Assembly: GCF_009389715.1 (NCBI RefSeq)
Contig: NW_024067908.1
Location: forward strand, 248,001 to 312,000
Length of the DNA stretch: 64,000 bases
Reading direction: 5' to 3'
DNA from: Phoenix dactylifera
Lineage: Eukaryota; Streptophyta; Magnoliopsida; Arecales; Arecaceae
Shown: piece after piece, positions 36,101 through 50,152 of the stretch
Position numbering within the stretch: the first letter of the stretch is position 1
Layout of the letters: the number at the start of each line of letters is the position of its first letter
Translations under genes and position numbers: made by a program
The notes under the pieces: generated by a model
The model's input: the letters and a program-made list of their open reading frames with translations, nothing else
What the model was told of the DNA's origin: nothing
The model's database searches: none

Positions 36101-39082
36101 TATGATTTCAATTGATTATGGCTGTTTATTTGGTCAGTTGCTGTTTGTAGTTCTGTACAATGTCTGGTTTACTTCAATCTTCTTTTACCAGGTTAAACAC
36201 ACTTTAGCCTAGTTAATATATACAATCTGCATCTTATTGCATCCGTAATCAGTCAACCTTATCTTGTTTTTTGATCCTCAACAGAGTTTGAGAACATTTC
36301 ATGATGACCTCTCTACTCAATATTAACCTGTTGCATATTCATGTTTTGTTCCTGACCTGAGGCAAATTTAGCATTGTAAGTGGCTTTCCTCGAGACCTGG
36401 AAGACCAGGTGGTGGAAAGTAAAATCCAAATTAGTTATCCTTAAGTTAAAGCTCCTAGAAAGCATCCTCAGCAATTTCCTTAACTTTATAAGAGTCTGAA
36501 TGTAGCGGAGAAAAACATACTTTGGTACCAATCATGTTCATTTTTGAGGCAATTTTGAAACCGTAGGGTAATATTGAAATGCAAGCCTGTTTTATAAGCT
36601 AAAAGTTTATGATTAGGGTTGGCTAATCAAGATTCTATTGGCATTGGTACAGATACATCAGTTTATGTTCATGAAAGTACATCTCAAGATTCTTCTATGG
36701 GCGAGGAACCTATTGTTAGGATTCCTTTTGCTATGATTGATGAAATCGCTTATGACTCACCCGCAGCAGAAGATGGATTGCAGCTTGGCGATGAGATCTT
36801 AAAGTTTGGGAATGTGGAAATTGGTGGTGAATTGCAATCAAGGCTCGTTTTAGAAGCACAGTCTAACCAGGGCCATCCAATATCTATGGTGATCATAAGG
36901 CAGGGTTCGGTAATGAATTTGAGTGTGACACCTAGAACATGGCGTGGCCGTGGACTGCTGGGGTATGTAGAATTTCTTTTGCTCTTTACCTGTTCATGCT
37001 CTCCCTTTTCATGAACAGTGTTTTGTGAAATGCTTATAAGTGTAGTCAGAAACTTGATTTTCCTAACAGTGCTTATCCTTCTGTATTTCCTGCAGGGGAA
37101 TCTATTGCATGACTTTTAGATATCTTTCTTTGACACCATGAACTATGTTTGCTGTGCTTTTTTAACATTTGTTGCATCCTTTACAGCTAATAATCTTATT
37201 GACCCAGCAGTAATTCTTACTTGTTGAACTCAAGTTTTTGCTAATAGCAGTTGAGTACTTTTGCAATTAATAAACTGTAGATGATGTACTCTTGGTTCAG
37301 TAATTGTAAGGTATGGTAGTTTGAATTTCTAATCCAGATAAGGCCTTCTGCCAATTTCTAGGAAGTTTAACTCAACAGACTTTGGATTTTATTAATGATG
37401 AAGTGCCAACTTGAGGTAGATTTTATGCCCAAGGCTGAAAATTTCTACTACAAATATTAAAAGCTGAGCAGGAGCCATCAATGCTAGTGGCTCTACCACA
37501 GACATCATTATTGCTGGGAATTAGATCATATGTTCAACCTGCTAGACTATGCAGAGTCGTAGTTTTTTTCCCTGGTTGAAGTGTGTCAACATAGATTAGT
37601 AAAAGGTTTAACTTGTCCATTGGTGGAGAATTTGATATTTAAATGAAAATTAATCGAGGAAGATATGACATTTTGAGCCTGTTTCATGTTATCATGATTT
37701 GACATTTGTTAAACGAAGATTTTCATGAGTTTATGGCTTAGCACTGGAAACTTTTATCTTGCTGTCGCATCTTCTCCAAATTCTTTTTTCTACTAGATCT
37801 TATGCACCCCTATTCTGATTATCTTTATTGCTATCATTAACGATCCATTTCAAACTTAATTTATGTCCCAATAGTAACAACTACTTTTGTAATTTATCCA
37901 GTCTATGCTATGTTGTCTTACCTTCATTATTTAGAAACATCAACCCAATTTCTGTCATTAGCCATTTGTGGCTATTTGATTAATGCATTTCACAAAAACT
38001 GTCCGTTCAAGCTCAACATTTGCCACTTGCCACAGACTTCTGGGATGCTTTGTACACAATGACTGTGGAGAAATGAGTGCTGAAGCATCACTAGGTCCTC
38101 CCTCCCTCCCTCCCTCTGTGTGTGTGTGCGTGCATTCCTTCCCTTTCGCGTGCTGACCGATGCATTTAGGCTGGGTCAACCCTAGCCTAGTCTCCCTTGA
38201 GTGTAAACTCTCAGTCCCATGCCAGGTCCAAGCCTGGCCAAAAGACATAACTCGAGCCTTGGTCTGGAAGCCAGTCATCCTGTATACAATCAGTCAATAA
38301 ATAAATCAGGTTGGGTCCTTAACTTCCTACTGTTGCAATTTATATGGCATCTTTGCTGCACTTGGTAGTTATTGAGCCGCTCTTGTTATAGTAAAATCTT
38401 TATCATGCCAACCAAATGATTCTAATTCTTAGGTCCATTTATTTATCCTGTTCTTTTCTGGTGCTGCTGAGCTGTTTTTTCATTCATCCTTCCCACCTCT
38501 TTAGAGAAGCATGATAGGAATGAAACTATCCAGGTATTCATCCATCTACCTTATGAACATTGTCTCATTAACAGGTAGGGGTCTATACATCACTTCCAAC
38601 AAGCACTTGATCATGGATTATAACAGAAAAAAATCCTGGTGATTTAATGATGTTGGTCCTTCTAACCTATCTTTGTTTTCTTATTTTACACAATTAAGAT
38701 TATTGTGATGGATTCTATTAAAGAAATAGGAAGTTTGTAAGTTAGAACATTGTTAAGAAACAAGAATCACTATTTGTCATAATGCACCGGGGGCAGGAAT
38801 GCAGACTGGAGTGGAAAATATTAGGAGTTTCATTGATTTTGATGATTTGTACATGTTAAATTAATCACTGAAATATAAGAGAAAAATTGATGTTTATATC
38901 TGTTATTGGTGCCTGTTTTTGAGCTGACCTTTCCATTTATTATTTTATGCATCTCATTGTAGTGGTTTGATGACCTGTAAAGCTTATGATGATCTCTTTA
39001 CATCTGAGAAGGTTATGCTCAAAATTGTTTGTTGTTTACTTCTCTGTATGACTTTTGCAGATGCCATTTTCAGATCCTATGA
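33129..39082 (+). CDS. PSMD9: 26S proteasome non-ATPase regulatory subunit 9 (PSMD9/Nas2-type chaperone)
   Basis: Five exons: 33129-33269, 33421-33481, 35911-36018, 36617-36962 and 39061-39082, giving 225 residues. This PDZ protein (yeast Nas2, human p27) chaperones assembly of the proteasome base by binding Rpt5. The N-terminal part (MVATNLKSETTALMEKRASI, then GFPRSDIDIPAIRSQRARLA and RNDHKDITDKIEKNLQ) is a helical hairpin typical of the family. The PDZ domain lies around residues 125-215, with FAMIDEIAYDSPAAEDGLQL, GDEILKFGNVEIG and VTPRTWRGRGLLGCHFQIL at the end. The last seven codons lie on a tiny final exon. Intron 1 begins with GC rather than GT (gag|gcaagc), a GC-AG intron; all others are GT-AG. 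A plausible poly(A) signal aataaa is at 39262-39267. Confidence 0.95.
34572..34654. repeat. Tandem duplication of 47 bp in PSMD9 intron 2
   Basis: The word gttttgtaggttttacagca starts at 34572 and again at 34619, followed in both by ag, one variable base, aactaaaatca. It duplicates a potential splice acceptor-like pyrimidine/tag site. Confidence 0.85.
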
Positions 39083-40916
39083 TGTGTCTCCATTTGTGAG
39101 AACAGCTAGATGGTGGACTTTGCTGCTGTTAAATTAGTACATTGAAATATGTGGCCATATCAAGTTGGGCGGTTTTCTCGATCATTTGCATTTTCCTTAT
39201 CAGCTAATGACACTACTCATATTTTGTATGATGTTCAGATTTATTGGTGGTGTTTGAACTAAATAAACTCATTCAGCCAAAATCTGATGAGTGGCAAGAC
39301 CAGTGTAATGATGCTGCTTCAAATTTACCTGATGCCATGCGAAGTGCCATTCCATGCGAATTTTAGATCTTGATACAATTGTTTGCACATCTTATATCAG
39401 CTTTGACAGGTGCCTTTGAATGGCAGGTTGGTACCAATCTCTTATTTGCGGGCATGGGATATTATCGCTGAATCAGGATAGCCGATAGCTTAATGCGAAC
39501 CAATGTGGAATATTTATGTTTCTAAATCTTGCAGATCCCGTGGTTAATCAGAACAGGCAAAACCCCTTTTTGTAAGGAAAGAGAAGATGCCTAACAAATT
39601 ATAACAGGCGTGTGCAATTTTTAGTTCATGTGCATATTTTGCTAGCAGATGTTTTATTTTAACAAATTTACGGAACACTTATTAGAGGCATCATGAATCT
39701 TTTGCCAGCTGACTTTGGTTATAAAAATTTATATAATCCATGCTTGGGTCTTTACAAGTTATCAAAGAAGGCTGGATTGCTCCCATTGTTCATGTATGGC
39801 TCGGTTAACTTATAAGATTGTTTGCAATAAAATGGCATGTCTTTTTGGTTGTTTCTTCTTGCCCAAGTTGACCCTTTCTATTATTTATTGTTCATATTTT
39901 CTATGATATATATCGATGTTGCGGAATGATACAGCTCGTGGTATCTGCCATTCATTCCCTAATGTGGTAGGCATCAATGGTGCATCGGACATGCATGAAA
40001 AATTTCTGCAATAAACTGATGTCTTGTGAAGAACTAGCTCGCTATAGGGAAAAGAATGAACTTAAAAGGTTAGGGCACCCACTGTAATTTTTATATGTAT
40101 TATTAGGTATAATTACCTTCACCACCAGCAACCCTTAAGAAACTAAGAGGCTTAACAGTTTAAGATGACTGCAATAGCTTGGTAAGTTGAAAAGCTGACA
40201 TCTTTTTCTTGATCTGTGATAACTCAAACCCCGCTGTTGAAGGAGCCAACCACGATTTGGGATTTGTTGTTTTAAACTCGTTTACCCGCTCGGCAGCTTA
40301 TTTTGGGCAGGCAATGAATCCATCGGCTGCTAAAAGTTATTCAGAAGTTGTGCGATGTGTGCTATGATTTAAACTTCCAAGTATGTAAGATGAGATCCCT
40401 GTTGGGCTTAGGCTTCAGGTGCTTCATCTATGTTTACGATGAAGCTTACTTTTGGTGTATTTCTTTTATTCCATGCACAATTCCTTTGTGCAATTTGTTC
40501 CGTGAATGATTCCATCATTCCTTCTATGTTATCGTTGAACATTGTAATCCTTCATGGTTTTTTTTCCTATGTAATTTTGCATGAATTTTGAGAGTCGTCC
40601 TTTTGCTATCTTCTGATTCCTATATCAATAGCTATATTAAAATATTGTCGTTTCCAATGCTCTGATCTCCAAAGCATTGCGTGTCTCAATGCTTCTCTCT
40701 TTTTATTTTCAAAAAAAAAAAAAACAACAACAAAGGATGTGCCACGTTTTTGGTTTGAGTCTGTAACTTTTTTCCAATGCACTGCAACTAATATTCATGG
40801 CATCTGCCTTTTTAACATTCTCTTCACCTGGTTTCAGCAACGCATATGCCCTTGGAGCGCACCATCGTGTTTCAGGACCCATCCATTTGTTTCATTTCTC
40901 ATTTTAAATCTTTATA
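39083..40916. other. PSMD9 3' UTR and gap up to the retrotransposon
   Basis: Candidate poly(A) signal at 39262-39267. Beyond that the DNA is AT-rich, with an A run at 40711-40724 near the retrotransposon edge. I see no coding region. Confidence 0.5.
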
Positions 40917-41779
40917 TGTTGCTGGAATTTGGACCTGATGGCGGCCATTGGTTGAGAAGGAGGAGCTCCGGTGTGAGATGGTGGGTGGCGGTCCATCGGC
41001 GGGCGGCGTCCTTCGGGGGACCTGCAAAAAGCTGATAGCCGGGATTTCCGGCGCCGGCCCTCCGATGCCTAAGTCAGAGGGAGCAAATGTATGGGGGGAG
41101 AGAAAATATGTCTCAGGAGTTTCAGAGTCCAACCCCCTCTAGGATGGAGGGGTTTCCCTTTTATAGAGGGGTACAGGATGATTACCTGTGATGTGACGGG
41201 GCGAATGAGTTACCGTCATGATTGAGCATGTCGTATGAATTAATGCACGATCGTATGAATCAATGCATCGCCGTAGGAGATTAGGCCGGAGCTAATGAGT
41301 CGTCGTGGCTGATCGGACGTAGCCGAGCAGGTCAGCTGTTTGCCGTGGAGGGCTTGAGATCCGTAGATAGCATGCGCATTAATTGTTGAGAGAGCTGGAG
41401 ATCAGTAGAGGCCATGCGCATTAATTGTTGACAGCAGTAGCAGGGCGTGGTCCTTTGTCGAGCTACAGAAGGATGTAACCGCTGCAGGTGGATAGTAAGG
41501 TCGGACTTCCGAGGTCGAGGATGCTGAGGTCAGGTGCCCAGGTCGGGAGTCCCGGAGTCGAGCATCTGGCCAGGTGCCAGGTCGAGAGCCCTGAGGTCGG
41601 GTTTCCAGTTGGGCATCTTGAAGTCGGGCGCCTCCAGGTCGGACGCCCGGTCGGGCGCCTCCAGGTCGGACGCCCTCAGGTCGGGCGCCTCCAGGTCGGA
41701 CGCCCTCAGGTCGGGCGCTTTCGTCACGTGCCAGCGATGCATTCATGCGTTTTTGGGGCGATCTGCTTTTCTCCCAACA
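40917..41779 (-). repeat. Left LTR (3' LTR of the element)
   Basis: 863 bp, TGTTG...CAACA. Near-identical over most of its length to the right LTR. It has an expanded array of a 30-bp unit (gtcgggcgcctccaggtcgg type) at about 41625-41725, which the right LTR holds only once. The minus-strand TATA box (ctataaaagg) is at about 41157-41166. Confidence 0.93.
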
Positions 41780-41800
41780 CTACCCTCCGACTTCCGAGCT
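41780..41800 (-). other. Candidate polypurine tract
   Basis: On the minus strand the bases just before the 3' LTR read ggaagtcggagggtag, a purine-rich run in the position of a plus-strand primer. Confidence 0.55.
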
Positions 41801-42125
41801 CGAGCCATTTACGAGCTCGGGCGAAGGAAGTAGCTGCATTTATTGTATTAGCGGGGGACAAGTGGCTTCGAGTTATTTTGTTGTTTCGCGCGCTTTGGGG
41901 CATCTTTAATGGGAGAAGACAGGGCGGCGCCCTTTCGTCTTTCGAGGTTGCTCCGCGTCGTGGGCTCATGATGGGGCTCCGGGATCCGACTGGATGCCGC
42001 TTCGGTTCTGCCTTAAAGGCGTTGATTCAGGTAGGTATGTCGCTTCGATTCTCGGGGCTGACACGTGGCACGATCTGGACAGAAAGTGGGATCCAGTCCC
42101 GCCGATCTAGGCCGTCGGGAGGGTC

Positions 42126-42133
42126 TATATAAA
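42126..42133 (+). promoter_or_regulatory. TATA box of the antisense gene
   Basis: The sequence tctatataaacccc contains a perfect TATATAAA, 238 bases before the antisense ATG at 42371. It lies inside the retrotransposon but outside the LTR and points opposite to gag. Confidence 0.7.
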
Positions 42134-42370
42134 CCCCCTGACTTAGCCTTAGAAAGGTCTTGCTTGGCCGTTTGTTATTGCTGCTCCCCTCTCTTCCTTC
42201 TGTCCTATTTCCTTCTCTTCCAGTTGCGATCGAGTCTTTCCGGTGGTGCCCTGAGGCGATTTCCAGCGACCCCTCCGTAGGTCATTTTCCCACGTTGGCT
42301 CGGGGATTCCCTTTCTTCTTCTTCTTTTCCTTCTTCGTTCTTTGTTTTCTTCTCTGCCCTTCTTTTTGAA

Positions 42371-44484
42371 ATGGGTCATGGTCCAAATGAGGTCGGATCT
42401 AGCCTGACTGAGGAGGAGCTAGAGCTGGTCCGTTCCCGGTTCTTTTTCCGGCCCGGGTTTCATCTCGAGCCTGCGGGGTCGGAGGACCGAGTGATGAGAC
42501 CTCCTCTAGGTCGGATCGGGGTGTACATCGAGACATTGGGCCGGCCTGCGGTTTCCTCTTCACGAGTTCATGAACGAGTTGCTGGTGGAGTACCAGCTCG
42601 TCCCAGCACAGCTCGCTCCGAACTCGTGGAGGACCATCATCGGGTTTTTATCCCTTTGCCTTGCGCACAGGATTCTGACCTTGGTGAATGTCTTCCGCCG
42701 GTGCTTCTTGTTGAAGTCGAACCCGGCGGACAGAGAGTGGCTTTACTTCGCCTTTCGGGGCAATATGTCACTCTTCCGAGGTGCCCCTTCCTCTATTAAT
42801 GAGTGGAAGGGAAAGTTTTTCTTCCTTTCGTCCGAGGTCTCGTGGGGATTTGATCCGAGGTGGGGGCATCCCCGGCTGAAGGCCCTCAACAAGCTCACCC
42901 AGCTTTCGGCGGACGGGCAGAGGGTTTTTGACGCTCTGCATAGCCTCGGGGGGGATATCCTTCTGACCGACCTCCTGAGTGAGGAGGCTCTGGTGAACAT
43001 CGGCTTGAGCTCGGCGCGCCACGAGGGTAAGAGCAGTCGCGCTGCTCCTTCTTCATTTTGCTGTCCTTTGTCTTATTCGTTTCTTTCTTTTTCTGATATT
43101 TAGATATTTTTTCTTCTTTCCAGATATTCCCAACATGGTGACTAGCAACACCGCGCTTTTCGTCCGGTTGAAGAGGAGGGCGGCCGAGGCTGGCGGGGCT
43201 CCTCTCGAGCCCAGGAAGAAGGCCAGGTCGGCCTCAACTTCTGCTCCCGCCGAGGCGAGGGGCTCTGGGGCCGGAACTTCCGGATTCATCCGGATAGAGG
43301 CCCCGGCTACCGAGCAAGCGAGCTCGGGTTCTAGGGGGTGACGGGTTCGGCGCCCCCTGCTTGCCCCGCCCCCATTTCTCAACAGCCAGGTCGGTTAGTC
43401 GTTCGCCTGCGACGCTCTGGCCCCCAGTCGAGTAGGGGCCCCGGAGTTTCGAGCTCGGACAGGCCGAGTTCGTCGGGAGCCAGAGATCGCTCCAGGAGGG
43501 GGTCTAGTAACCCGGAGTCCCCGATCCGTGAGGGCAGTTCGGCCCTTCGAGATAGCGATGTCGCGCGCGCAGTATTTCGCCGCGCGTTGCTCCTGGCCGA
43601 CCGGGCCGAGTTCGAAGCCATCGACCTCGGGGATCTCGTCGATCAGACATACTGCAACGTTGCCCGGGTAAGTCGCCTTCTCATTTTTTTTACTTTGGTT
43701 ATTGGCATTTCCTCCGCTTTCATTTATCGTTGTTTTTCCTGCAGCATCTCCATGAGATCGACATGCTGGTATTCATAGCCTCGGAATGCCAGAATGAGGT
43801 TCGGCGATTCCAAAGGCAGCTGGAGATGGCCGAGAAGAGGCTCGCTGACTCTGAGGCCACGCGGGCGGAGGCCATCGCGCGGATGGAGGCTGCCGAGGCC
43901 GAGCGGCGATCGGCAGTCAACGAGCTTGAGGAGGAAAGGGCCGCGCACACTCTGGCGAGGTCGGAGTTCCGCGCTTCCGAGGCGCGTCTAGCCGAGGCCG
44001 CCGGCCACAAATATGATAGCGGAGTTCTCCGCTTGAAGCCCGAGAGAATAGGGCGCTGGAGCAGGCCCAGAATGCAGTGGAACTCTTCAAAGAATCGGAG
44101 AATTTCCATGATATGTTGGAGGAGAAGACCGTGGACGAATTCCTCCAGGGCTTTGAGAACTTCCGGAGGCAGATGTAGCGGTTCTGCCCCCAGCTCGACC
44201 TCACTGGCATTCGGCCAAGGATGGGGGTTGGTGCGGAGAGCGAGCTCGACGTTCTCTGCGATCCTTGAGGCCGAGTAGGAGGTCGTCGAGGCCGAAGCTG
44301 GCGCGGCCGAGCAAGCGGCTCAAGAGACTCCCCCGGGGAAGTTGCCGGGGGTGTTTTCGAGGCCACTGGCGAAGCTTCGTCTGAGGCCGTCGCGGAAGGT
44401 CCCGAGCCAATTCCTGTCGAGGACCCTCGAGTAATCATCATGGACGACCCTGAGGTTGATGCCGATGCAGCTGCCGCCCCCTAG
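42371..44484 (+). pseudogene. Antisense extra gene of the retrotransposon (putative gypsy-type transposon domain, PF04195-like), decayed
   Basis: Three exons, 42371-43026, 43124-43667 and 43745-44484, with good splice sites (gtaaga...ttccag and gtaagt...ctgcag) that join in phase. Exon 1 starts MGHGPNEVGSSLTEEELELV. After a one-base frameshift near 42543 it carries FPLHEFMNELLVEYQLVPAQ, APNSWRTIIGFLSLC and WLYFAFRGNMSLFRGAPSS. That is the pattern of the plant 'putative gypsy type transposon' domain. Exon 2 is basic, Ser/Pro-rich and disordered, with a second frameshift near 43335. Exon 3 is a long coiled coil (RRFQRQLEMAEKRLADSEAT onward), then FHDMLEEKTVDEFLQGF in another frame, and an acidic end. 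At least three frame breaks and internal stops make this copy non-functional. The function is unknown. Extra ORFs in antisense are known in Tat-lineage elements. Confidence 0.8.
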
Positions 44485-44591
44485 GACTTAGCCTTCTCTT
44501 CTTTTTTTCTTTCTTTATCTTTTTTGTAAGTGAGGTCGGCCTTTGAATAGGGCCGAACCTCAATTTTGTACTTGGCCTCTAGGCCTTCATC

Positions 44592-44597
44592 AATAAA
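44592..44597 (+). terminator. Poly(A) signal of the antisense gene
   Basis: AATAAA 108 bases after the antisense stop codon, followed by a T-rich stretch. Confidence 0.6.
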
Positions 44598-44811
44598 GAT
44601 TTTTTCTTTTTCCAAACTTGTGCCTGCTTCTGTTTGTATTTTAGCTGCTTGAGCTGGATTCCTTTTTGGTGAATTTCTTCAAGTCTTCAAGCTTGGCCAA
44701 GTCTCTAGACTTAGATTCCGGTAGAATTCGCCAAGTTGTTAGGCTTAGCTCTAAGAAGGATCATGTTGAGGCTTTAGGCTTAGACTTTAGGAAAACTCGC
44801 TAAGTCTTTAA

Positions 44812-45130
44812 GCTCGGGCTCCGAAGAAGTCCCGCTAGGCCTTTAGGTTTGTCTTCTGGAAAAATTTTGCCAAGTCCTTGGGCTCGGCTTCCAGATTGCT
44901 GAAGCTTTGAGCTCGGACTCCGAAGAAGTTCCACTAGGCCTTTAGGCTTATCTTCTGAAAAAATTTCGCCGAGTCCTTGGGCTCGGCTTCCAGATTGCCG
45001 AAGCTTTGAGCTTGGACTCCGAAGAAGTTCCGCTAGGCCTTGAGGCTTATCTTCTAGAAAAATTTTGCCGAGTCTTTGGGCTCGACTTCCAGATTGCCGA
45101 AGCTTTGAGCTCGGACTCCGAAGATAACAT
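44812..45130. repeat. Three tandem 99-bp units
   Basis: Units begin with gctcggactccgaagaagtt or a close variant at 44812, 44911 and 45010, with a partial fourth at 45109. Because 99 is a multiple of three, a minus-strand frame (44800-45171) stays open and gives a 33-residue repeat (FxEDKPKGLxELLRSPSSKL). Degenerate relatives may extend left to about 44690. It lies between the integrase end and the antisense gene end. Confidence 0.93.
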
Positions 45131-45675
45131 AGGCTGAGGTCGGAATATCGTTGGAGCTTCCATGCTTTCAATCTTGAACTTGGTCGGCGTGGAAGCAGGT
45201 AGAGTTAGGCCTCATGGTGAATGACTTGGCACCTCGAAGCTCGGTTAGAGCATCATCAGGCGGAGCTCGAGGTCGCTGTTACAGGCCGTCTCGGCTTGAG
45301 TTGACATTCGGACTCGGCAAAGCCCTCGTCCAGGGGGGTCCGAGGCAAGATCGAGCTGGAGATTGACGGTGAGGAGCTTCCCGCACTCAGTCAGGAGATT
45401 ATGTGCGAGGTTGAGGGAACCTCGGCTCGTGATCGATTCAGGAGAGCATCCTGGCCTTAGTCGGGATTTCGTTGACCGTCCTGTAATATAAGCAAGTAAG
45501 TACAATGATGTAGGTGCTGGGTAGGATATACCTCTCGCACCATCGGAGCCGGACATCTCATGTTGAGGTAAGCGACTCCGCTCCGAAGTTGGCTTTCAGC
45601 AGTGCTCTTTGGCCTATAGTTCGCTCTGGGCGCGCCTGCACACCAGGGGGTCCACGTAATCTCCTGAATGTCTTC

Positions 45676-46000
45676 TCGAGGCCGAGGAAGCTTGGGCTCA
45701 CTGTCGACTCAACGGGACATCCCGACCTTAGTCGGAGGATCGAGCACGAGATCGAGAAATCTTGGGCTCGCTATCGACCTGGTGACGCTTTTCGAGGTCG
45801 AGGGAGCTTGGGCTCACTATCGACTCAGTGGGGCATTCTGACCTTAATCGGGGGATTGAGCACGAGGTCGAGGGAGCTTGGGCTCGTTGTCGACCTGGTG
45901 ATGCTTCTCGAGGTCGAGGGAGCTTGGGCTCACTGTCGACTCAGCGGGGCATCCCGATCTCGATCGGGGTCTTTGATGGAGATCGAGACCGAGCTCGACG
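45676..46000. repeat. Tandem 116-bp units, each with two related half-units
   Basis: The word tcgagg(c/t)cgagg recurs at 45676, 45792 and 45908. Within each unit the phrase agcttgggctc or a variant occurs twice, about 58 bp apart, so an older short unit was duplicated before the 116-bp period arose. It lies in the untranslated region downstream of integrase. Confidence 0.85.
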
Positions 46001-46194
46001 TCGTTGTGGCGAGGTATTTCAGACTTGGCTGGGGCATCCAAACTTGGTCGGGCATCCGAGCTTGGTCGGATTTTCTGAAGATCACAAGTGTCCCAATATC
46101 AGGAGGAGCACAGAATAATTAGAGAACTGTGAATGAATTAACATGAGAAGGGGACGAGAATCGTGTTCCCAATCGTCGAGGGCCCCTTAGGGCT

Positions 46195-46696
46195 CTACTG
46201 GTAATACATCCGAAGATTTTCGGAATTCCAGCTTCGCGGAACGAGGGTCCCTTCGAGAGATTCCAGCTTGTATGCTCCGGGCCATTGGACTCGTGCAATC
46301 CGGTATGGCCCTTTCTGGTTTGGGGCAAGCTTACCCCGCTCGGTGGGCTGAGAAGCTTCTGCTCTCCTGAGGACGAAATCTCCTGCCTTAAAGAGCTTGA
46401 CTTTTACTTTGGAGTTGTAGTACTGTGCCGTTTTTCGTTGATATCTCGCCATGCAAACTCGGGCTGCCTCCCTCGTCTCCTCGATGAGGTCCAAGTTGCC
46501 CCTGAGCTGGGAGGAGTTGGAGGCTGCATCGTAATGTTCCACCCTTGGACGAGCACTGGCATCGATCGCACCTTCGGACGAAGTCCGTTGCATCCTTTTG
46601 AAGTGTGGGCCAATAGTATCCTTGGCGCAAGATTTTATGGGCCAATGCTCGGCCTCCCAGATAGTTTCCGCATATCCCTTCATGAACCTCTCGCAT
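46195..46696 (-). pseudogene. Integrase remnant: zinc finger joined to C-terminal domain
   Basis: From 46696 down the text reads VHEGICGNYLGGRALAHKIL followed by YYWPTLQKDA and RRCDRCQ, the H2C2 zinc-binding domain. In a second frame it continues at QLRGNLDLIEETREAARVC and ends with KGPYRIARVQWPGAYKLESL and NSENLRMYYQ, the C-terminal domain. The catalytic DDE core that normally lies between is missing, and the frame changes at the junction. Confidence 0.88.
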
Positions 46697-48631
46697 AGCG
46701 TAGTCCGCCTCTGATTTCCTCCTCGATCGAGACCGAATACTCAGTAAAACCGACCAGTGGAGCGTTCATTCTCCGAAGCTGGCTTTCCGTCATCCCCATT
46801 TTTTGATAGGCATCGCAGTATAAAATATTTGTCGAGCTTAAATTATCAACTAGGATGTGCTTTACATCAAATTTGTTTACAATCATGGAGATGACCACAG
46901 CGTCATCATGAGGAGTCTCAACTCCTTCCAAATCCTCGTCCGAGAATGACATGGTTTCGGAGGTATGCGGGCGCTTCGGAGGGGTCCTTCCCTTGATTGG
47001 TTCTTCAGCCGAGCTTCCTCCTCCAATGGTGTTAATAGTGCCAGCGTTGGGCCTATTGTCATTTGGATTTTCGGGCAGTGCTGCATTTTCCACTGGCCTC
47101 TTTTCCTCACACCGGTTCCACACAAACCGGTTGAGTACCCCACAGCGGATAGGCGCCTCGATCTCATCCCGAAGCTGGAAGCAATCCTCTGTGTCGTGGC
47201 CGTGATTCCGATGGAAACAGCAATACTTCCTAGGATTGCGCCGAGCTCCTGTATCCCGCATCGGTGGTGGAGGTCGGAAATAGTCTCGACCTTCTATCTC
47301 CATTAGGACCTCTGCTCGGGGAACATTCAGGGGAGTGTAATTCTCATACCTCCCCAAGGGCATTCGTGGCTGCGGCGAAGAACTCGGTCGAGGCGGGGAC
47401 CTCGGTCGAAGCTGTTCCCGTTGTCGAGGTAGACTCCTCAACTGAGGCTGTTTCTTATCTCGGCGGGGGGATCGGCTGCTCGGGCGGCCTTGCTCTTCAC
47501 GACGTTTCTTCTGCTTCTTTGAGGCCTGCTCGATCGCGCCCCGCCTGGAGGCGATGGCCTCCTCGGCCTTCGCATACTTCCGAGCTTGGGCCAACATCTC
47601 GGTGAAGTCGGCAGGGAAGCTTTTCTCAATAGAGAAGAGAAACCTGTAGGATCGAGCCTTAGTCTTCAGTGCCGACATGGCTATCGACTGGTCGAGCTCG
47701 AGAACCTCTCAGGTCGCAGCGGGGAAACAGTCGAGATAGTCTTTGAGGGATTCTCTCTCCTTTTGTTTGATGTCGAGGAGGGAATCTGAGGTTCGCCGCT
47801 GGCGTCAGCTAGCAGCAAAGTTGGTGGCGAACTGCCTGTCGAGCTGCTCGTAAGAGAATACCGTGTTTGGCTTCAGTCTAGAGAACCAGAGCCGAGCCGT
47901 TCCTTAAAGAGTTGCTGGGAAGGCTTTGCAAAGCACAGCTTCCGAGGACCCCTGCAATGCCATGAGGGCTCGGTAACTTTCCAAATGGTCGAGGGGATCG
48001 ACAGCTCTATTGTAGGGCTCCACCTGGGGCATTTTGAACCTCGGTGGGACCGGCTTATCCTCGATCTGGCGAAAAAGGGGGACTTAGTGGTGAACTCAAA
48101 GTCACCCTCGTGCCTTGCCTTCCTGCTGTAAAGCGCTTCAATCTGTCGCTCAAGCTTCTTGACCTTCCTGTCGAGCTCCCAAGCTTGGGGGATTGCCACA
48201 GTAGTCTGCTCCGGCTCGTGTCGGTCCGGGGCTGACTCAGCTTCCGAGAGCTGGGGCCTTCTGTCTATGCTCCTCCCTGGCAGTTCTCTCCGGAGAGACG
48301 CTCGGGCTGAGCCTTGGTGACAGCATCATTCTTCATTGTTGGCCCTCGAGGAGCCATGAAGATTCTGGCCCTGGGGCACCGGTCCATTTGGAGGAAGCAC
48401 TGGCTGGACTTGGGCCTGTGGAGGCGGCATAGGTAGGGCTTCCTCATGTTGCAGGCCTTGGACAACTACGGCCAAGGCTTGAACCTGCTGCACCAGGATA
48501 TTGAACTGTTTTGGCTGGACTTGGGGAACTGGGTCAGGCGGAGATGGCGAATTCTGGACAGAGTGTCCAGGACTTGATGGGAGATGCCGGAAGGCATTGG
48601 AGGCTCCTTTGCTTCTCAACTTCATGGCCAC
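46697..48631 (-). pseudogene. gag-protease remnant of the retrotransposon
   Basis: An N-terminal segment starts at 48631 (MAMKLRSKGASNAFRHLPSS) close to the primer site. A capsid-like region follows across frameshifts (about 48200-47640). Next is a long open frame (47678-46697) with a basic Arg/Ser/Pro-rich linker, CCFHRNHGHDTEDCFQLRDE, and the start of a retropepsin (HILVDNLSSTNILYCDAY). The usual catalytic Asp-x-Gly reads Asp-Asn-Leu, so the protease is dead. At about 46700 the text switches abruptly to integrase, marking the loss of reverse transcriptase and RNase H. Confidence 0.88.
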
Positions 48632-48658: not shown

Positions 48659-49503
48659 TGTTGCTGGAATTTGGACCCGAAGGCGGCCGTCGGCTGAGAA
48701 GGAGGAGCTTCAGCGTGAGATGGCGGGTGACAGTCCGTCGGCGGGCGGCGTCCTCCGAGGGACCTGCAAAAAGCCGGTGACCGGGATTTCCGGCGCCGGC
48801 CCTCCGATGCCTAAGTCAGAGGGGGCAAATGTATGGAGGGAGAGAAAATATGTCTCAGGAGTTTTAGAGTCCAACCCCCTCTAGGATGGAGGGGTTCCTC
48901 TTTTATAAAGGGGTACAGGATTACCTGTGATATAACGGGGCGGACGGGTTACCGTCATGATTGAGCATGTCGTATGAATTAATGCACGATCGTGTGAATT
49001 AATGCATCGCCGTAGGAGATCAGGCCGGAGCCAATGAGTCGTCGTGGCTGATCGGACGTAGCCGAGCAGGTCAGCTATTTGTCGTGGAGGGCTTGAGATC
49101 CGTAGATAACACACACATTAATTATTGAGTGAGCCGGAGATCAGTGAAGGCCATGCGCATTAATTGTTGAGTGAGCCGGAGATCAGTGGAGGCCATGCGC
49201 ATTAATTGTTGACAGCAGTAGCAGGATGTGGTCCTTGGTCGAGCTACAGAAGGATGTGACCGCAGCAGGTGGATAGCAAGGTCGGACTTCCGAGGTCGAG
49301 GATGCTGAGGTCGGGTGCCTAGGTCGGAAGTCTCGGAGTCGAGCGCCTGGTCAGGCACCAGGTCGAGAGCCCTGAGGTCGGGTTTCCAGTTGGGCATCTT
49401 GAAGTCGGGCGCCTCCAGGTCGGATGCCCTCAAGTCGGGCGCTTTCGTCATGTGCCGACGATGCGTTCATGCATTTTTGGGGCGATCTGCTTTTCCCCCA
49501 ACA
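48659..49503 (-). repeat. Right LTR (5' LTR of the element)
   Basis: 845 bp, TGTTG...CAACA. It differs from the left LTR by scattered substitutions, by having an extra copy of a 48-bp unit (gagccggagatcagtg...gcattaattgttga, about 49130-49215), and by lacking the expanded 30-bp array. A minus-strand TATAAA lies at 48902-48907, about 240 bases before the LTR end. Confidence 0.93.
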
Positions 49504-50152
49504 ACACCAATTAAAGATATGTTACGAGGGTGTGATTGATCCGTAGGCAGGAAAAGCCTATCAAGAGCCTTTTTATATCTCATGTTTCCTTCCATATATA
49601 ATGTAATTCCCAGGTGCTTCTTTGGTATGGTAATTCTCTGGCCTTTCAATCCATGTTCCAACTTTAGGACTTCCTTAAGTTAATCATTTCTGAAATTAAC
49701 TTAGACTTGCCTATGGTCTCTCAGTCAATTTGCGTTCTTTATAAGGATCCACTACCTTGACGGACAAGGCTTTTCAACTTCCTCCACGAGGCAAGTAGAA
49801 TTTTCGAAGATACTGGTTTAAATCCTGGATAGTCTACCCATGAAACTTGCCCTTGGGACTTGTTTAGTTTATGGAAAGAGAAGAGAGGAAAATGTGACCA
49901 ACGGAAAACTAAAAAATGCTGATGTTTCGTTTGAGATTTCAAAGAAAAGGAATAGAAAAGTAGTTTTTTTTAATATAAATAAGGTTTTCATATTTTATAG
50001 GAAAGAAAATTCAACAAGGGAGATAAAAAGGTCACTTTCCCATGAGTTGAAAATTGAGCTTTTTTTTTATAAAAATACTTTAGACTTTTAAATAGAATTG
50101 GTTACGATCTTTCTTTTTACTACCGGGGTAATAAAGATTTTATACTATTTTT
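49504..50152. other. Non-coding flank of the retrotransposon
   Basis: AT-rich DNA with cttgggacttgtttagttta near 49852, similar to a MITE terminus, but I could not find its partner. No coding pattern. Confidence 0.4.

Follow-up and report, generated by a model that had tools for sequence, protein, structure and literature searches.

A pseudogenised antisense gene with two predicted introns in a probable Retand/Tat-type LTR retrotransposon of Phoenix dactylifera

We analysed a 64,000-nucleotide stretch of the Phoenix dactylifera genome (RefSeq assembly GCF_009389715.1, contig NW_024067908.1, positions 248,001 to 312,000 of the forward strand; hereafter the window), in which a decayed Ty3/gypsy-type long terminal repeat (LTR) element lies in minus orientation. 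The plus strand of this element carries, between 42126 and 44597, the signals of a three-exon gene that a first-pass annotation had noticed from the letters of the sequence. We conclude that this is probably a pseudogenised antisense accessory gene with two introns, carried by an LTR retrotransposon of the Retand/Tat type. Our analysis confirmed the first-pass observation and partly supported its interpretation.

Anatomy of the antisense gene and its predicted protein

Inside the minus-strand element, plus-strand signals follow one another in gene order: TATATAAA, ATG, three exons, TAG and AATAAA. The TATA box, the start codon, the two in-phase GT-AG introns, the stop codon and the AATAAA are all present where the first-pass annotation had them.

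42126..42133, plus strand: TATATAAA, candidate TATA box, in the internal region, some 350 nt from the LTR edge
42371..43026, plus strand: exon 1, with the start ATG and the PF04195 domain; one frame break at about 42.5 kb
43027..43123, plus strand: intron 1, GT-AG, 97 nt, phase 1, junction codon GAT, with an in-frame stop inside
43124..43667, plus strand: exon 2, with a motif resembling a bipartite nuclear localisation signal (NLS) and a Ser/Arg/Pro-rich linker; one frame break at about 43.34 kb
43668..43744, plus strand: intron 2, GT-AG, 77 nt, phase 0, with no in-frame stop of its own and a length that is not a multiple of 3
43745..44484, plus strand: exon 3, with a charged Pro/Gly-poor part (43745-44017), an acidic end and TAG at 44482-44484; several breaks after about 44.02 kb
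44592..44597, plus strand: AATAAA, candidate polyadenylation signal

The ATG at 42371 stands in the context GAAATGG, and the sequence from 42151 up to it is free of ATG. The leader (42160-42370) is 44% T and 7% A; read on the sense strand it is a long purine-rich tract near the 3' LTR, in addition to the usual polypurine tract. The open frames flanking introns 1 and 2 join in phases 1 and 0, respectively. Since neither intron has a length that is a multiple of 3, and intron 1 contains a stop, the unspliced frame breaks. The present copy is a pseudogene with frame changes in all three exons. The first-pass annotation had also called it broken; its description of the gene as complete holds for the signals but not for the frame.

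The predicted PF04195-like domain was borne out by a profile search, in which the exon 1 region matched Pfam PF04195 (Transposase_28) with an E value of 5.4e-8 and 33.4 bits against a gathering cut-off of 26.2 (query piece 42570-43100, profile positions 21-68 of 69). All six residues conserved in Retand elements (G21, P25, L34, P46, N47 and F55) were found at the published spacing (PMC11963269) in a hand alignment with its offset fixed on G. The bipartite NLS-like motif of exon 2 also arises in 61 of 2000 shuffles of the same piece; set beside the reported nuclear location of the Grande GENE23 product, it supports the reading of an accessory gene. The start of exon 3 contains a single Pro/Gly in 91 residues, and its matches to SMC proteins (E 0.0097) were far under the cut-offs. 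These two features lend weak support to the long coiled coil claimed in the first-pass annotation, whereas in a crude test of heptad periodicity 901 of 5000 shuffles scored at least as high as exon 3; with this test non-significant and the SMC matches sub-threshold, we did not accept a coiled coil as established.

Other candidates in and around the gene were set aside. A sequence match in the PDB at E 0.093 was dismissed as chance, and the exon 3 piece 44038-44175 gave no match in a search of NCBIfam only. Three minus-strand open reading frames (ORFs) over the gene (43056-43382, 43723-44109 and 43920-44441) matched no credible Pfam family (best E 0.058) and were taken for shadows. Plus-strand ORFs at 41488-42129 and 45514-46119 had no match in Pfam.

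Intron signals against local and whole-window background

We scored splice sites with a rough weighting of plant site frequencies. Between 42300 and 44600, which holds 107 GTs, the donor of intron 1 is the 2nd best and that of intron 2 the best; among the 169 AGs, their acceptors come 1st and 3rd, respectively. Both introns are about 37% GC and 50-51% T, against 58-66% GC in the exons, figures computed with the border of intron 1 set 3 nt early and that of intron 2 set 1 nt late. We then ranked the 5249 GT-AG pairs in the whole window (65-401 nt, both strands, non-negative scores). By splice score intron 1 was 7th and intron 2 27th; by GC drop they were 3rd and 12th. No pair equalled or beat intron 1 on both measures, and one pair did so for intron 2.

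Under strict thresholds, chosen after introns 1 and 2 were known, nothing passed on either strand of the 64 kb other than these two introns and intron 1 with an alternative acceptor (43103), and the opposite strand of the gene region held no passing intron. Shuffles of the region that kept composition in 50-nt blocks yielded two such introns in 0 of 2000 cases and at least one in 17 of 2000. Host-gene introns in the window were also not picked up, so the scan is strict rather than sensitive. The intron signals exceed chance. The alternative acceptor (intron 43027-43103), 20 nt upstream, has a good score, but the frame beyond it meets an early stop.

It could be argued that the PF04195 piece alone is real, and that promoter, introns and polyadenylation signal are coincidental in T-rich DNA. 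Every one of these signals is common when taken singly (the window holds 11 TATATAA sites, for example). However, the absence of a two-intron outcome among the local-composition shuffles, and phases that fit as well, leave coincidence with hardly any credence.

A second alternative is that the antisense ORFs are independent and unspliced, two or three in number, and encode one protein with PF04195 and another that is helical and Smc-like, with the T-rich stretches serving as spacers or leaders. A survey of Retand elements does list antisense ORFs singly, with PF04195 and Smc in different ORFs (PMC11963269), and exon 1 too is preceded by a T-rich leader. Yet the donors and acceptors that flank the T-rich stretches are among the best in the window, and the frames on either side of these stretches join in phase. 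Furthermore, TATATAA, the one TATA form searched, does not occur between 42126 and 49595, and thus not ahead of exon 2 or exon 3. We regard separate ORFs as unlikely.

Several points weigh against the spliced gene that we favour. Its joined frame was assembled from pieces, all three exons being broken, and intron 2 is open in one frame. The splice weights were rough and some thresholds were post hoc. At the protein level, the heptad result lends no help, and the fold predicted for the exon 1 piece from its single sequence was of unusable quality (mean predicted local distance difference test score, pLDDT, 43.1). The Retand survey took its ORFs from ORF Finder, and the word 'intron' is absent from its main text (PMC11963269). 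Finally, the model derives from one copy and from sequence alone; one broken copy makes a two-intron model testable but does not prove it.

The splice signals are present, as had been claimed, but their preservation is no evidence of selection. The probability that the 8 splice-site bases stay unhit in one copy is about 0.73 (taking half of the LTR divergence), and we therefore rejected preserved splice sites as a sign of selection.

Searches for relatives covered viral, bacterial and archaeal contigs, where an absence is uninformative on plants. A close-relative search gave 27 pattern matches in viral contigs and 138 in bacterial and archaeal genome contigs, none of them confirmed. A degenerate motif of the PF04195 region found 2 stretches in viral contigs and 36 in genome contigs, and an integrase motif found 4 in viral contigs; when these 42 motif-matched stretches were compared with the domain by tblastn, no match was credible (best E 0.21). 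Within the window, no second copy came up when three pieces were searched by tblastn and the region by blastn.

The host element and its surroundings

The host of the antisense gene is a decayed Ty3/gypsy-type element bounded by two LTRs in direct repeat, with the following features.

40918..41779, minus strand: 3' LTR (left copy), direct repeat with the right LTR; ends TGTTG...CAACA judged by eye
44806..45124, plus strand: tandem array, 99-bp unit, 3.2 copies
45672..45969, plus strand: tandem array, 116-bp unit, 2.6 copies
46195..46696, minus strand: integrase remnants, comprising the zinc-binding part PF17921 and the C-terminal SH3_Tf2-1 part
46683..48631, minus strand: gag and protease remnants, by our reading of the translations
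48659..49503, minus strand: 5' LTR (right copy), direct repeat with the left LTR; ends judged by eye

The LTRs are 862 bp (left) and 845 bp (right) long and differ by about 7.7%, with 62 mismatches in roughly 809 gap-free aligned columns from two BLAST segments. Pfam searches recovered the zinc-binding remnant of the integrase (PF17921, E 1.9e-9) and its C-terminal remnant (SH3_Tf2-1, E 0.0029, under the family cut-off). Four translated pieces of the gag and protease stretch matched no Pfam family at a credible score, and no Pfam match to reverse transcriptase was obtained among the element pieces tested. By our reading of the translations, this copy is without reverse transcriptase, RNase H and integrase core, and has no room for them. 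Both tandem arrays sit between the pol remnants and the antisense gene.

The left LTR holds a GC-rich tandem repeat of 30 bp in 3.3 copies (41623-41718), and the same scan listed none in the right LTR. On the minus strand, each LTR has a TATAAAA-like box (at about 41166 and 48905), a candidate sense promoter separate from the antisense TATA box. No target-site duplication was seen beside the LTRs at 40908-40917 and 49504-49513 (left ..TTATA, right ACACC..), which may reflect recombination between copies or rearrangement. Upstream, a host gene with a PDZ domain lies on the plus strand at 36619-37011 (PF13180, E 1.3e-6), which we take to be a homologue of the proteasome subunit PSMD9/p27. Its likely last exon (about 39060-39080, plus strand; CHFQIL and then a stop) ends about 1.8 kb ahead of the element, and the element is therefore probably downstream of this gene.

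The antisense gene and its probable place in the Retand lineage

The Retand (Tat) lineage has a published hallmark, a PF04195 ORF that lies antisense in the stretch from pol to the 3' LTR (PMC11963269). The gene described here has that location, antisense to gag-pol and between the integrase remnants (46.2-46.7 kb, minus strand) and the LTR edge at 41779. Published Retand elements have LTRs of 315-1,194 bp, an internal region of 7,380-12,869 bp and a pol-to-3' LTR region of 2,933-6,566 bp that often contains tandem arrays (PMC11963269). In the present element the pol-to-3' LTR region, of about 4.4 kb with its two arrays, and both LTRs fall within these ranges. The internal region, at 6,879 bp between the LTRs, falls short of its range, by our reading because part of pol is missing. 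Further marks of the lineage are its place in phylogenies of reverse transcriptase, RNase H and integrase and an extra RNase H between RNase H and integrase; by our reading, this copy shows neither reverse transcriptase nor any RNase H.

The first-pass annotation had referred to extra antisense ORFs in Tat-lineage elements. These are indeed known, and are a general feature of Retand: in recently active elements the antisense PF04195 ORF was reported in 97% of the clusters analysed (Vicient 2025, PMC11963269), and an earlier study placed the PF04195 domain in extra ORFs (eORFs) of 23% of Retand elements (Neumann 2019, PMC6317226). The Retand ORFs of this type, termed TRP28, share with our gene the domain and its conserved positions, the orientation, the place between pol and the 3' LTR, and nearby tandem arrays (PMC11963269); the domain they encode has been predicted in print to bind DNA. 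Smc domains are also reported in antisense ORFs of the pol-to-3' LTR region, a pattern that the weak exon 3 matches mirror. The published PF04195 and Smc ORFs are described as separate, domain-coding ORFs with no introns mentioned in the survey, whereas here the pieces join in phase as one three-exon gene (PMC11963269).

Full gene anatomy, including introns, would also be expected of a host gene that the element had captured in antisense together with its promoter. However, PF04195 is lineage-wide in Retand, and the survey reports no similarity outside transposable elements (PMC11963269), which makes host capture very improbable.

An antisense accessory gene with a TATA box outside the LTR, as the first-pass annotation proposed, is supported. 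Its further statement that a spliced, self-promoted gene is much less commonly described needs dividing. The antisense gene23 of the maize element Grande has been reported to have its own promoter and a nuclear product (Vicient and Casacuberta 2020, PMC7264820), which leaves the splicing alone as the less documented part. Gene23 is likewise an accessory gene that lies antisense in the stretch from pol to the 3' LTR, with a promoter upstream of it and a nuclear protein; our gene has for its part a candidate TATA box and a predicted nuclear signal. The same authors flagged antisense and spliced transcripts as deserving study (PMC7264820). In the literature covered, there was no description of introns in antisense PF04195 genes. 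The gene type and its own promoter are thus already known, and the introns seem little described.

In a working relative, transcription by RNA polymerase II would begin at the TATA box of the internal region, close to the edge of the 3' LTR, and run back toward pol. The host spliceosome would excise both introns, and the RNA would be cleaved near AATAAA, ahead of pol. The predicted product would combine a PF04195 domain, a nuclear signal and a helical tail, which may oligomerise, and would regulate the element inside the nucleus by acting on the DNA or RNA of that element itself. We propose that retrotransposition leaves the introns in place, since what is copied is the sense RNA that starts in the 5' LTR, and on that strand they are not introns.

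Functional introns have been described in the plant LTR retrotransposons Ogre and EVADE (PMC12786077, PMC6317226); those predicted here differ in lying on the antisense strand. A parallel in kind is HBZ of human T-lymphotropic virus type 1 (HTLV-1), a spliced, polyadenylated antisense gene of a retroelement whose product inhibits Tax- and c-Jun-dependent activation (PMC1459196). This is an analogy, with no homology claimed, and HBZ transcripts begin within the 3' LTR whereas the TATA box here is in the internal region.

More tentatively, the same architecture may extend across Retand. The two kinds of antisense ORF, PF04195 and Smc-like, could be exons of a single ancient gene. Its introns, being antisense to the copied RNA, would have been retained since the lineage spread in flowering plants, and its splicing would be needed to make a nuclear regulator of the element. 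We regard this generalisation as possible, at rather less than even chances. If it is correct, annotations err where they divide the gene among unrelated ORFs, the protein could for the first time be studied as a whole, and reads across the antisense junctions would serve as a specific marker of its expression. The gene described here, if the two-intron model is true, would be a clear case of introns outliving retrotransposition because of their strand, and a counterpart in plants to HBZ, the spliced antisense gene that HTLV-1 carries. It would also be the mirror image of laboratory reporters, whose introns are sense to the element and are removed from every new copy (PMC12786077), vanishing at each jump.
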